A program made the position numbers and the translations under genes. The notes beneath the pieces were generated by a model. The model did no database searches. It had not been told where the DNA came from and saw only the letters and a program-made list of their open reading frames with translations. From a virus: DNA of 40,752 nt. The stretch is taken from positions 1 to 40,752 of the IMG/VR virus record IMGVR_UViG_3300019752_000011; one strand, given 5' to 3'. How positions within the stretch are numbered: position 1 is the stretch's first letter; the number at the start of each line of letters is the position of its first letter. Of this stretch, positions 242 to 29,517 are shown piece after piece.

Positions 242-274
242 TGAACATATTACATTTAAATCTAACACAAACAC

Positions 275-307
275 TTAAAGACAATAAAAGTTTTTAAGTG
301 TTATAAT
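275..307 (+). promoter_or_regulatory. Promoter upstream of the GIY-YIG leader
   Basis: A perfect -10 box TATAAT lies at 302-307 after a T-rich stretch. The -35 region is weak (TTAAAG at 275-280, 21 bases upstream). Transcription would begin near 314, giving a leader of about 160 bases before the gene at 477. That leader holds the folded structure described next. Confidence 0.5.
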
Positions 308-341
308 ATATCATACGAAATAGATATACAACATATATGTT

Positions 342-459
342 TTAGTAAAGGTAAGTCAAATACTCTGGCGGGTCGCTTATCTTTACTAAGGTTTATTTGT
401 TCAAGAATCCGCCAAATTCTTCTATTAAAATCAATAAATCAAATTTAATGTTACTGGCG
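342..459 (+). promoter_or_regulatory. Structured 5' leader with pseudoknot (candidate cis-regulatory RNA)
   Basis: Positions 342-355 and 376-389 form a 14-bp stem (one G-U) closing a 20-base loop. Within the loop, TGGCGGGT at 366-373 is complementary to ATCCGCCA at 407-414, so loop and downstream strand can form an eight-pair H-type pseudoknot. A second TGGCG at 455-459, just before the ribosome binding site (AAGGA at 466-470), can pair with the same CGCCA. The two pairings exclude each other. This is the layout of a translational switch for the gene at 477. I do not recognise a known riboswitch class, and the ligand or trigger is unknown. Confidence 0.55.
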
Positions 460-476
460 AAAAAAAAGGAATTAAA

Positions 477-1001
477 ATGTTTTCTTGTTTCGAAAAGAAA
501 AAATGTCAAAAAGAGTTGTATTTTCAAATAGACAATGCTATAAATTATAATAAAGATTATAAATGCAAATGTGGGGTATACGCAATATTTAAAGATAATA
601 TTTGTCTTTATGTAGGACAGTCTAAGAACTTATCAAGCAGAATCTCTACACACTTAAAAGGAAAATATTCAGAATGTGATTGTATTTTAATTTATGAATC
701 TTATGATAGGGATGAAACTGATATTAAAGAACTTACCAATGGAGAAAAGAAGCTTATTCAGATATTAAGACCTATAGAAAATTTAATAGCAGATTATACA
801 GAAGAAATAGATGAGAAAGAGATATTTGAGTCAAATATTGCCTATACAGCAACAGGACCACTTGACAATAGAACAATCATAAAAGATTACAATTTTGTTA
901 TTTTAAATTCTGAATATAATCTAATGATTGCAAGTGACGATGTATCAGAAAATCTAATGATGAATAAAAATGCTAAAAACTATTTAGAAGGCAAAATATA
1001 A
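477..1001 (+). CDS. GIY-YIG nuclease domain protein
   Basis: This 174-residue protein has an N-terminal GIY-YIG fold. Visible motifs are GVY at 33-35, YVGQS at 45-49, Arg55 in the R-x-S helix, the catalytic Glu90 and Asn102 in the RPIENL segment. Known family members cut DNA as homing endonucleases, repair nucleases or restriction enzymes. The C-terminal 70 residues (from about 105) match nothing I know and may bind DNA. It starts with ATG 7 bases after AAGGA and abuts the O-like replication gene (ATGG at 1001, sharing one base with the stop). A free-standing homing endonuclease is the simplest reading, but a DNA-processing role next to replication genes is possible. Confidence 0.8.
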   Translation: MFSCFEKKKCQKELYFQIDNAINYNKDYKCKCGVYAIFKDNICLYVGQSKNLSSRISTHLKGKYSECDCILIYESYDRDETDIKELTNGEKKLIQILRPIENLIADYTEEIDEKEIFESNIAYTATGPLDNRTIIKDYNFVILNSEYNLMIASDDVSENLMMNKNAKNYLEGKI

Positions 1002-2176: not shown

Positions 2177-2360
2177 GAAAAGTTGCAGTACTTGTGAGAG
2201 AAAAAGTTTTAATACTTGTAATTATAGTGGATATTCTTTAGAAGCAGAAAGAAAAGTTCCTACAAAATGTGGACAAAATTATGAAAAAGGATGGATAAAG
2301 AGAAGAAGCATTCTTACTAAAATAAAAGATTTTTGGATAGGGGAAAATAATGGAAGATAG
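2163..2360 (+). CDS. Small cysteine-rich protein (zinc-binding candidate)
   Basis: 65 residues counted from ATG 2163. A TTG at 2157 is an alternative start. Cysteines form CSTC, then single Cys in NTCNY and TKCGQ, giving four possible zinc ligands. Small CxxC proteins of this kind are common near phage replication genes, usually without known function. A second CSTC protein lies at 6095. The gene overlaps both neighbours, so it is translated as part of the replication operon. Confidence 0.6.
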   Translation: MEEVKKSCSTCERKSFNTCNYSGYSLEAERKVPTKCGQNYEKGWIKRRSILTKIKDFWIGENNGR

Positions 2361-3348
2361 AAAACAAATACTAATAGACAAATTAGAAAGTGATATAAAA
2401 GAAAAACAATCAATTTTAAAAGAGATTCAAGACGAATTTAAAACTAATAAACTATTTGCACCTAAAAACATTAGAGATATTAAAGGATTAAATCTTGAAG
2501 TAATAGGACTTAATTATATTCCACTTATCAAAGGAGCTTACAATTTACTAACTGGGCGAGGTGGTTCGGGTAAATCAGCAGTAGCATTAAAAAGTATGAT
2601 TATGTATTTAGCAATAAATCCAACTAAAACTGGATTAGCTTTTTTTACAGAAGATGGGAAAGACGATATTATCTCGCGATTAGAAATGATTTGTAGAGGC
2701 GAAAATATAAATAGTGAAGATATTATTAATCGTGTGCATTTTATAACAGTTGAAAACGACGACCGTATCAAGTGGGCGAAAACTTCAAGAGACGGATATC
2801 AAGTAGAAAGCGTTTACATAAATGAAGTAATAGAATTCGCAAAAAGTCAAAGTGTAGGATTTATCATAATTGACCCATTGAAAAGATTTCATTCATTAAG
2901 TGAAAATTCTAATGATGATATGGATGTTTTAGTAAGAGACGTTTTTGTAGATATGGCGGTTAAAACAGAAGCTTGTCTTTTAGTATTACATCATAGTGCA
3001 AAAGGTGGCGAAAGTGGAGCATCAAGAGGAGCTGGAACAATAAGTGATAGTGCTAGACTTGGTTGGAGAATAGGGAAATTCTATATCAAGAATGAGAAAA
3101 CTGGAGAGATTGTAGTTGATGAAAGCAAAAGAAATAAAATAAAACTTTCAATTATAAAAGATAATCAAGGATTAGAAAGTAAATGTAGTATAAGAGATGT
3201 TTCTGATAGTTCAATACAAAATCCATTAATCGGATTTATTGGTGGATATAATAGAAGTATTGAGCCTGAAACAACAACATACGAAATGACAAACAATTTA
3301 GAAAATCCACCGCAAATTGATGTGGATATTCCTGAGATAGATTTTTAA
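2350..3348 (+). CDS. RepA/DnaB-type helicase ATPase (AAA_25 RecA fold)
   Basis: 332 residues. The RecA-type core shows Walker A GRGGSGKS at 69-76, Walker B FIIID at 171-175, and the family's HH-containing strand (LLVLHHSAKGG, 211-220) followed by GASRGAGTISDSAR. This order is typical of RSF1010 RepA-like hexameric helicases and phage primosomal ATPases, which unwind DNA ahead of the fork. The N-terminal 40 residues form a coiled coil that could mediate oligomerisation or loading. There is no primase domain. Placement just after the O-like initiator fits a replicative helicase. Confidence 0.8.
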   Translation: MEDRKQILIDKLESDIKEKQSILKEIQDEFKTNKLFAPKNIRDIKGLNLEVIGLNYIPLIKGAYNLLTGRGGSGKSAVALKSMIMYLAINPTKTGLAFFTEDGKDDIISRLEMICRGENINSEDIINRVHFITVENDDRIKWAKTSRDGYQVESVYINEVIEFAKSQSVGFIIIDPLKRFHSLSENSNDDMDVLVRDVFVDMAVKTEACLLVLHHSAKGGESGASRGAGTISDSARLGWRIGKFYIKNEKTGEIVVDESKRNKIKLSIIKDNQGLESKCSIRDVSDSSIQNPLIGFIGGYNRSIEPETTTYEMTNNLENPPQIDVDIPEIDF

Positions 3349-10375: not shown

Positions 10376-10547
10376 AATAGAAAATGGGGTAACTACAGCA
10401 GAGGGTAGTGCACAAACTATCACTAAAGAATGGTATGATCTTACAGTAGCAGTAATAGATGGACTCGAAGAGAATATAGGTATAACTATAACAATAGAAA
10501 GTCTAATACAAGGTGCTGAAATGTTAAAGGAAAATGAAGATGTTTAA
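10368..10547 (+). CDS. Hypothetical protein, 59 aa
   Basis: ATG 10368 overlaps the VRR-NUC stop by 8 bases, with SD AAGGAA at 10355-10360. It is acidic, with EWYDLTVAVIDGLEENIG. Its end overlaps the SSB start by 14 bases, so it lies firmly in the operon. No family is recognised. It may be an accessory to VRR-NUC or SSB. Confidence 0.5.
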   Translation: MIKIENGVTTAEGSAQTITKEWYDLTVAVIDGLEENIGITITIESLIQGAEMLKENEDV

Positions 10548-11016
10548 TCGAGTGATTTTAATAGGAAACGTAACAAGAGATACAGATCTTAAATATTTAC
10601 CAAGTGGTTCAGCAATAGCAAATGGTGCAATAGCAACAACACATAAATATAAGATGCAAAACGGAGAACAAAAAGAGGAAGTTTGTTTTTTAGATTTTTC
10701 TATATTTGGAAAAGGTGGGGAGATATTTAACCAGTATGTACGAAAAGGTTCTAAGGTTATGCTTGAAGGTAGATTAGTTTTTCAACAGTGGAAAGCTCAA
10801 GATGGAACAAGCAGAAGCGGACACGCTTTAAGCGTAACAGAATTTAAGTTTTTAGATGGTAAGCAAGACAATCAATCAAACAACAGTCAAACAAACAACC
10901 ATAACAATAATTGCGGTCAACAACAATATCAACAGCCCCAACAAAACTATAATGCACCACAACAGCAGTATAACGAACAAAACAACATAGCCTTAGAAGA
11001 TGAAATCCACTTTTAA
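10534..11016 (+). CDS. ssb: Single-stranded DNA-binding protein
   Basis: 160 residues. The OB fold covers about residues 3-108, with FNRVILIGNVTRDTDLKYLPSG, KEEVCFLDFSIFGKGGEIF and KGSKVMLEGRLVFQQW. A Gln/Asn-rich flexible linker follows, and an acidic tip ending LEDEIHF, like the DDIPF tail of bacterial SSBs that recruits partner proteins. It binds single strands at the fork and hands them to the Rad52-like protein. ATG 10534 and ATG 10540 are both possible starts. Confidence 0.93.
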   Translation: MKMFNRVILIGNVTRDTDLKYLPSGSAIANGAIATTHKYKMQNGEQKEEVCFLDFSIFGKGGEIFNQYVRKGSKVMLEGRLVFQQWKAQDGTSRSGHALSVTEFKFLDGKQDNQSNNSQTNNHNNNCGQQQYQQPQQNYNAPQQQYNEQNNIALEDEIHF

Positions 11017-28731: not shown

Positions 28732-28757
28732 CAAAGAGAGGTTTAATTCTCTTTGTT
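28730..28757 (+). terminator. Convergent hairpin after the chaperone gene
   Basis: AACAAAGAGA at 28730-28739 and TCTCTTTGTT at 28748-28757, 10 bp, loop of 8. It stands between the + strand chaperone stop and the - strand endonuclease stop, so it may serve both directions. T-run weak on both sides. Confidence 0.55.
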
Positions 28758-29427
28758 AGCTAAAGTTTTTAGAATGTTCTAAATTGTTATCATCTACATA
28801 CTTATCATAAGCAATTGCAGCTTCTTTTTTATCTTCGTAATTCCCCAAGTTTATCTTTTTATAATTAACATTTATTCTTGAAGCCCACTTTTTAATATTT
28901 TTTTGAAAGCTAACACCTTTGTATCCGCTAGTATTGTTTTTTCTTACTACGCTAATGTTTCTTGACTGTGTTGTTTTTTTAGCCCATCTGCAATTTTCTT
29001 TAGAATATTCTTTGTTGTTATTTATTCTATCCAAGGTTAATCCTTCTTTGAAAGTAGGATACATATCTCTAATAAAGTTTTCTATATTTAACCATCTATC
29101 AGATACTGAAATTCCTCTTCCTCCATAATAAGAATAATTTGTGTCTCTAATGTTATTACATCTTCCCATCATCCGATTCCAAACATTATAAAGTCTATGT
29201 TTACCTAGTCCATGAGTAGACTGTACTTCTGAAGCTCTTTTCTTCTGATAGCATCCACAACTTTGAGTATGCCCTCTCTTCACATTATGAGATTGTGCCC
29301 TGAACTCAACACCACAAAAACACTTATAAAGTCCATGTCTTCTTTTTGTTTTTGACTCTTTATTGGATAGTATCATCCCTAAATCTTTTAACAGTACTAA
29401 TTCTTTTATTTTTTGATTATTTTTCAT
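28756..29427 (-). CDS. HNH-AP2 homing endonuclease
   Basis: 223 residues on the reverse strand. An N-terminal Cys cluster (YKCFCG, SCGCYQK) is followed by the HNH-type core of this family (MMGRCNN, YYGGRGISVSDRW, LDRINNNKEYSKENCRWA) and a C-terminal AP2 DNA-binding domain (TSGYKGVSFQKNIKKWASRI, NLGNYEDKKEAAIAYD). Such proteins are free-standing homing endonucleases that copy themselves between phages. It interrupts the usual chaperone-tape measure order, and its orientation confirms an insertion. Its ribosome site lies in the folded element upstream. Confidence 0.88.
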   Translation of the reverse strand: MKNNQKIKELVLLKDLGMILSNKESKTKRRHGLYKCFCGVEFRAQSHNVKRGHTQSCGCYQKKRASEVQSTHGLGKHRLYNVWNRMMGRCNNIRDTNYSYYGGRGISVSDRWLNIENFIRDMYPTFKEGLTLDRINNNKEYSKENCRWAKKTTQSRNISVVRKNNTSGYKGVSFQKNIKKWASRINVNYKKINLGNYEDKKEAAIAYDKYVDDNNLEHSKNFS

Positions 29428-29435
29428 TTGAGCTT

Positions 29436-29497
29436 CCTAGGGCTAAATTTTTAAGAGAGGCTAAGAGCCCTAGGATAGACCTAGCCACTCTTAAAAA
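29436..29497 (-). promoter_or_regulatory. Interlocking inverted repeats (pseudoknot) over the endonuclease start region
   Basis: Two inverted repeats interleave. The first is CCTAGGGCT at 29436-29444 with AGCCCTAGG at 29466-29474 (9 bp). The second is 29448-29463 with 29482-29497 (15 of 16 pairs, one A-A). The arm order a-b-a'-b' is that of an H-type pseudoknot. On the - strand, the SD AGGAAG of the endonuclease (29438-29433) overlaps the first repeat, so folding should hide it. Confidence 0.6.
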
Positions 29498-29517
29498 CTT
29501 TCTATTCATAATTATAC

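Follow-up and report, generated by a model that had tools for sequence, protein, structure and literature searches.

A predicted pseudoknot leader with competing pairings at the head of an early phage replication operon

The control of replication genes by RNA pseudoknots is a classic of conjugative plasmids, and the YUNR U-turn motif is a well-known element of the loops that antisense RNAs target. The c4 RNA of P1 and the CI RNA of P4 control antirepressor or replication genes. In IncL/M and IncI plasmids, the translation of rep requires a pseudoknot, and an antisense RNA blocks its formation (PMC8125031, PMC8383071); a loop motif, 5'-rUUGGCG-3', is named in the title of a reference within PMC10724649. 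The operator of gene 32 in phage T4 is a pseudoknot of ~28 nt, behind which UUAAA repeats are spread over more than 40 nt, and it is overlapped by segG, a GIY-YIG nuclease gene (PMC535899). Finally, RNA structures that sequester the ribosome site precede the nuclease genes I-TevI and mobE (PMC3014915).

We analysed a 40,752-nucleotide stretch of viral DNA (IMG/VR record IMGVR_UViG_3300019752_000011, hereafter the window), in which an earlier note, made from the letters alone, had described a pseudoknotted leader ahead of a GIY-YIG nuclease gene. The leader and the genes behind it have the following features.

270-302, no strand: inverted repeat resembling an operator (AACACTTAAAGAC / GTTTTTAAGTGTT), which overlaps the early promoter; retained in the related contig L004
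278-307, plus strand: sigma-70-type promoter AAGACA-18-TATAAT; transcript start estimated at ~314
335-396, plus strand: stem-loop H1, 335-356 with 375-396, core 342-355/376-389, loop of 18-20 nt
366-373, plus strand: loop motif X1, TGGCGGGT; its core is the same in L004 and in the IncI plasmid R64
403-421, plus strand: possible hairpin AAGAAT/ATTCTT (arms 403-408/416-421) with CCGCCAA in its loop, which would give the pairing a kissing-loop form
407-414, plus strand: X-bar, the pseudoknot partner of X1, ATCCGCCA; X2 is its possible alternative partner
441-450, plus strand: piece of an AU-rich element, AAATTTAATG, upstream of the ribosome site; CTTAAAWTT-like and recurring among relatives
455-459, plus strand: X2, a second TGGCG and competitor for X-bar, seven bases upstream of AAGGAA
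466-479, plus strand: ribosome site AAGGAA (466-471) and ATG (477) of the GIY-YIG gene, by direct reading
477-1001, plus strand: GIY-YIG nuclease gene (Pfam PF01541, E=6e-7); missing from L004
1001-1660, plus strand: replication initiator (O-like) gene (PHROG 18020, E=1.5e-37; PF04492)
2350-3348, plus strand: AAA_25 replicative helicase gene, the query that found the first relatives

The pairings described in the earlier note are all present. By direct reading, the core of H1 (342-355, TTAGTAAAGGTAAG, with 376-389, CTTATCTTTACTAA) is a helix of 14 bp including one G.U, and it is part of a longer one, 335-356/375-396, with one mismatch in 22 positions. The complementarity between X1 (366-373) and X-bar (407-414) amounts to 8 bp, one of them G.U. 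X1 is preceded by a C, and the resulting CUGG matches the YUNR motif. The second TGGCG, beside the ribosome site, is able to compete for X-bar as had been claimed: in a fold that ignores pseudoknots, 410-414 pairs with 455-459 at a probability of 0.89-0.98, and the long stem forms at 0.98-1.0. The energies of the isolated duplexes are -12.3 kcal/mol for X1:X-bar and -9.1 for X2:X-bar; given these values and the shared X-bar strand, the two pairings are of comparable strength and exclude one another. The hairpin at 403-421, whose loop holds most of 407-414, is weak in the pseudoknot-ignoring fold (probability ~0.015). Folding of 300-500 gives -34 kcal/mol (z = -2.1), and the local structure predicted over the ribosome site pairs it with coding bases 481-486. 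The promoter is the best one on the sense strand of the leader (p=0.02 against shuffles). No ribosome site is evident for a frame that starts with ATGTTACTGGCG at 448 and enters the GIY-YIG gene in another frame.

We scanned both strands with criteria based only on structure, i.e., a long stem with a loop pairing to nearby downstream sequence, and the window leader scored 54. In dinucleotide-shuffled sequences of its relatives (1.05 Mb), scores of at least 48 were reached twice and scores of at least 52 never; these counts are descriptive because the thresholds were picked with the first leaders in view. Among 119 unrelated viral contigs, many of them GC-rich (1.96 Mb), we found 38 matches of at least 52. 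The score alone is thus no proof, and we assessed chance mainly from homologues (the L004 leader and a covariation set, see below). No known cis-regulatory RNA of Rfam, C4 included, matched the window at the gathering score, and searches of the leaders with permissive thresholds returned no credible family match. An intrinsic terminator or attenuator was ruled out, since there is no terminator-like site within 200-560. We also rejected a tRNA or tmRNA identity of the leader, and dismissed as chance the Rfam microRNA matches on hairpins and the further CCGCCA matches in the window that might have acted in trans, which occur only at chance level. A put-type antitermination element was considered, and the freely varying sequence argues against it.

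The helicase gene led to five viral contigs, among which L004 encodes a helicase 82% identical to that of the window. Similarity also extends to the sequences around the promoter (83% over 64 nt) and around the ribosome site (81%), while the stretch between them is mostly different. L004 has a stem of 18-22 bp with a 20-nt loop (TTTCAAGCTTGGCGGTTCTC) that forms a 10-base pairing with a downstream AGAACCGCCA; it retains the UGGCGG/CCGCCA loop pairing and has TGGC again ahead of the ribosome site. A MAFFT alignment of the two sequences misplaces the stem, so we built no covariance model from it. We compared the stems by script, counting positions outward from the loop: 10 of the 21 positions changed on both sides with pairing kept, 2 changed on one side, 6 are identical, and at the remaining 3 one of the two sequences is unpaired. 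Nucleotide and protein searches of phage and viral collections with the leader and the GIY-YIG gene returned nothing. The exact pattern TGGCGG..CCGCCA..TTANTGGC, searched in viral contigs and filtered for structure, was found in L004 alone among the matches listed, and a tighter version of the TGGCGG..CCGCCA pattern again gave L004 alone. The motif is absent from the Campylobacter plasmids H19 and H20, which were reached by distant helicase similarity. The window's own core is found in one relative only, and the direct covariation of this subfamily is that of two sequences.

L004 lacks the GIY-YIG gene. Its leader directly abuts the replication initiator gene, which indicates that the leader is part of the replication operon; the GIY-YIG gene was probably inserted later between the two. 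In the window, the start of the initiator gene overlaps the stop of the GIY-YIG gene in TAATG at 1001. TAATG or similar junctions occur across 1-2360 where early genes overlap, and translational coupling along the replication operon may begin with its first gene.

A small upstream gene (89-241) and additional scans gave access to further relatives. About ten of them have pseudoknot leaders, found by structure only, upstream of replication operons or of their first genes: L129; L132 and L138; L141 with L152 and L232; L144; L276; and L280, which is a second leader in the L144 phage. They have the same architecture in different letters. L131 can be aligned to L129, with unchanged pairing segments (TCCTAGTTC/GAATTAGGA), L128 is a weaker candidate only, and a match in L148 was left out of the count because it precedes an unrelated gene. 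The genes behind the leaders vary, and include DUF6291 replication genes (L138, L276, and, judging by its look, L141) and AntA antirepressor genes (L132, L144). Strong leaders of a related kind are also present in the NrS phages, which are temperate and have deep-sea Campylobacterota as hosts (PMC9723563).

L293, 2334-2433: leader of NrS-1
L290/L291, 3912-4000: leaders of NrS-2 and NrS-3

In NrS-2 and NrS-3, isolated phages of Nitratiruptor, the leader stands directly before the DUF6291 gene and its pairing contains the ribosome site. That of NrS-1 precedes genes for a CII-like protein and a primase, and its 3' partner lies in codons 4-6. Across all leaders, the X-bar ranges from ~60 nt upstream of the start to codons 4-6; it overlaps the initiation region in several relatives, and holds the ribosome site in NrS-2, NrS-3, and the leader of an HNH gene of the window. 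The related genes in Nitratiruptor phages, together with the distant helicases of Campylobacterota plasmids, suggest that the host of the window's phage belongs to the Campylobacterota.

The L144 phage (a 32.9 kb record) has two pseudoknot leaders in one genome (L144 943-1072 and L280 14585-14720), one before the AntA antirepressor gene and one before a gene of no known function; in the second, a downstream CCCTTAAA is able to pair with the lower stem too. In L128, a tRNA-like match (Rfam RF00005, 31.8 bits, exceeding the gathering score) occupies 2921-2988, with the early promoter region on one side and the replication genes on the other. Inverted repeats lie at or flank the early promoter in the window (270-302), L129, L132, and L128, and differ among these relatives, as expected for putative repressor operators of differing specificity.

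The check proposed in the earlier note, covariation in relatives, gave a positive result, beyond the compensating changes of L004. Five leaders could be aligned (L132, L138, L141, L152, and L232), and we tested the named structure on them. In this set, 96% of the cells pair, and 10 cells are doubly changed, against 4.0 in shuffles. None of 500 shuffles scored as high, and the score drops sharply when the partners are slid, although the independent events are few because the five leaders form two clusters and the shuffling ignores relatedness. Both helices covary, two of the doubly changed pairs being in the pseudoknot helix. L144 and L280 have similar flanks and differ, by eye, in X1 (GTCT/GTCG), X-bar (AGAC/CGAC), and the copy preceding GAAAG (GTCT/GTCG), i.e., in one triple co-change. 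L004 retains X2 itself, and counterparts exist in L144, L280, L132, L138, and L276. When compared with shuffled ribosome regions, X2 complementarity was weak, with p values from 0.04 to 0.26 in the better groups, and none was found in the L141 and L129 families. These comparisons hint at X2 as a competitor across relatives. In summary, the sequence data indicate that the window leader folds as a real RNA pseudoknot, maintained in evolution beyond chance.

We propose that this pseudoknot is a cis-acting leader of the early replication operon that controls translation, that it is not specific to the nuclease, and that the GIY-YIG gene was inserted behind it. We estimate the probability of this reading at slightly above one half. 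Leaders of different sequence precede replication genes in many phages of the Campylobacterota type, and for this reason the leader is probably a translation switch and no special feature of the GIY-YIG gene. Translation as the target is suggested by the position before replication genes, the retained pairing, and the closeness of the initiation region; the computed support consists of the pairings, their retention despite replacement of the sequence, and the repeated position before replication genes. Once transcribed, the leader would fold H1, and the X1 loop would pair with X-bar downstream in an H-type or kissing pseudoknot located 5' of the ribosome site. Alternatively, X-bar would pair with X2 next to the ribosome site, and its choice of partner would set the translation level of the first gene. 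The effect could reach the replication initiator through the overlapping stop and start codons at 1001. By analogy with RepZ of IncI and IncB, the pseudoknot would favour translation and X-bar:X2 would lower it. In the window, X-bar ends ~50 nt upstream of the ribosome site, which it therefore would not occlude directly. For the leaders of the NrS phages and of the HNH gene, the expected polarity is opposite to that of RepZ: the pseudoknot should hide the start region and hinder translation. More broadly, the odds seem to us about even that Campylobacterota phages share an undescribed, sequence-diverse class of pseudoknot leaders at the start of replication operons, convergent with IncI, and that free-standing nuclease genes of these phages hide their ribosome site similarly.

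The earlier note had seen in the competing pairings a cis-acting switch or sensor, possibly of an unknown class. The cis-acting RNA with competing pairings stands, since L004 keeps both pairings and the distant relatives keep the architecture. A metabolite riboswitch of a class not yet known would account for mutually exclusive pairings near the ribosome site, yet the relatives share no conserved unpaired core of the kind that binds a ligand, their loops and stems vary freely, and Rfam returned no match even at permissive thresholds, which makes this the least credible explanation. The note had also invoked the translational control of homing nucleases such as I-TevI. On this reading, the leader would belong to the GIY-YIG gene and delay translation of that gene, in the manner of I-TevI or mobE. 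The other free-standing nuclease gene of the window (HNH) does have a pseudoknot leader containing its ribosome site, as does an HNH-like gene of L146. However, L004 has the leader, the promoter, and the ribosome flank with no nuclease gene at all, the slot is occupied in other phages by a replication gene or an antirepressor, and AAGGAA (466-471) lies outside both H1 and the pseudoknot of the window. We thus regard this claim as very improbable for the GIY-YIG leader. The HNH leader is of interest in itself. The HNH/AP2 endonuclease gene (28756-29427, minus strand) has its own leader at 29427-29503 of the window, with a stem AAGTTTTTAAGAGTGGCTAGG/CTTAGCCTCTCTTAAAAATTT and a loop pairing TCCTAGGGCT/AGCCCTAGGA, where AGCCCTAGGA includes the AGGA ribosome site; it scores 66 in the scan, more than the 54 of the GIY-YIG leader. 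In L146 (14640-14700), upstream of a gene that we read from its translation as HNH-like, the loop TTCCTACACC pairs with GGTGTAGGAG, which contains the ribosome site.

Three other explanations are unlikely rather than negligible. Under IncI-type copy control proper, the opposite strand would give rise to an antisense RNA that pairs with the H1 loop, blocks the pseudoknot, and limits expression of the replication genes, and the differing loop sequences would define incompatibility or immunity groups. Loop length, position, and the UGGCGG/CCGCCA core are as in R64, the architecture is constant while stems and loops diversify, and YUNR loops occur in the window (CUGG), L004, L276, and NrS-2 (UUGG), and L144 and L129 (CUAG), but L132 and L280 lack them. 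The opposite-strand promoters predicted across H1 did not stand out from shuffles in any of the phage leaders (p 0.24-0.89), whereas one was detected in R64, the positive control (p 0.06); moreover, H1 has no flanking terminator-like site, and we saw no RepA gene of the plasmid type in the vicinity of the leader. The structure might also act at the 5' end of the early mRNA, as a pseudoknot at or near the transcript start that shields it from 5'-to-3' decay without any switching. A conserved structure with freely varying sequence would fit, and H1 starts 6-11 nt past the -10 box in L138, L276, L280, and L129. Yet this distance is 27 nt in the window and ~76 in L004, a plain hairpin would suffice, and neither the overlap of X-bar with the initiation region nor the retention of X2 in L004 is explained; we regard such a role as improbable. 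Marginally less doubtful is an operator of the T4 gene 32 type, where the pseudoknot would nucleate the binding of a phage protein, e.g., a single-strand binding protein (SSB), which would then spread across both the AU-rich stretch and the ribosome site and repress the replication genes. An AU-rich stretch of 45-65 nt lies 3' of the pseudoknot, UUAAA occurs 11 times in nine leaders against 5.7 expected (p=0.008), and 7 of these 9 have a CTTAAAWTT-like motif against 2.0 expected from shuffles, an enrichment overstated because the leaders are partly homologous by descent. By our own reading, the window also encodes an SSB-like protein (10534-11016). Still, no SSB gene is among the identified downstream genes (nuclease, initiator, helicase), and the AU-rich stretch is missing in the NrS-2, NrS-3, and HNH leaders.

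If the translation-switch reading is true, pseudoknot control of replication extends from plasmids to viruses, and provides a phage replication switch that can be tested directly. NrS-1, NrS-2, and NrS-3 have been isolated and carry related leaders, which allows tests independent of metagenomic sequence. Because pairing is kept while letters change, the class escapes similarity searches and Rfam. The window subfamily, for its part, shares even the UGGCGG/CCGCCA core with the plasmid design.

Among the systems introduced above, the P1 c4 and P4 CI RNAs resemble this locus in having a structured leader with repeated complementary segments, and two relatives have an AntA antirepressor behind the leader; they differ in that we found no Rfam C4 match, that the pairing is short and in cis, and that no processed trans-acting RNA was identified. 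The I-TevI and mobE leaders likewise place an RNA structure upstream of a nuclease gene, and the HNH leader (29427-29500) is a better fit to them than the GIY-YIG leader, which leaves the ribosome site unsequestered and occurs without a nuclease. As in gene 32 of T4 and RB69, a 5'-side pseudoknot is followed by an AU-rich stretch with UUAAA and by the ribosome site, but the stem of the window is much longer, no ssb gene lies behind it, and the operator is a putative one, known here from sequence. The closest known design is the RepZ (RepA) leader of IncI1/IncI-alpha plasmids (R64, ColIb-P9), whose principle also extends to IncB and IncL/M. Our control scan of R64 recovered a 15-bp stem (CCCCCACTATCTTTC/GAAAGATAGTGGGGG), a 21-nt loop (TTACGAACTTGGCGGAACGAC), the pairing TGGCGGA/TCCGCCA, and a TGTGGC that resembles X2 and covers the start codon of RepA. 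The YUNR-type motif reads CUGGCGG in the window and UUGGCGG in both L004 and R64, in loops of 18-20, 20, and 21 nt, and the loop pairing upstream of the rep start spans 8, 10, and 7 bp, respectively. The differences from RepZ are that this is a phage and not a plasmid, that the replication proteins are unrelated (a GIY-YIG gene and then an O-like initiator instead of a RepZ/RepA-family initiator downstream), that the first gene of the operon is variable, that an antisense promoter was not found, and that the pairing sequences of most relatives differ; as a leader peptide, the frame from 448 is a doubtful candidate. Since the geometry is shared and the antisense test failed, we describe the leader as RepZ-like in its presumed working and not as a RepZ leader: it has the long stem, the loop of ~20 nt, the UGGCGG:CCGCCA pairing downstream, the extra TGGC near the start, and a replication gene behind.
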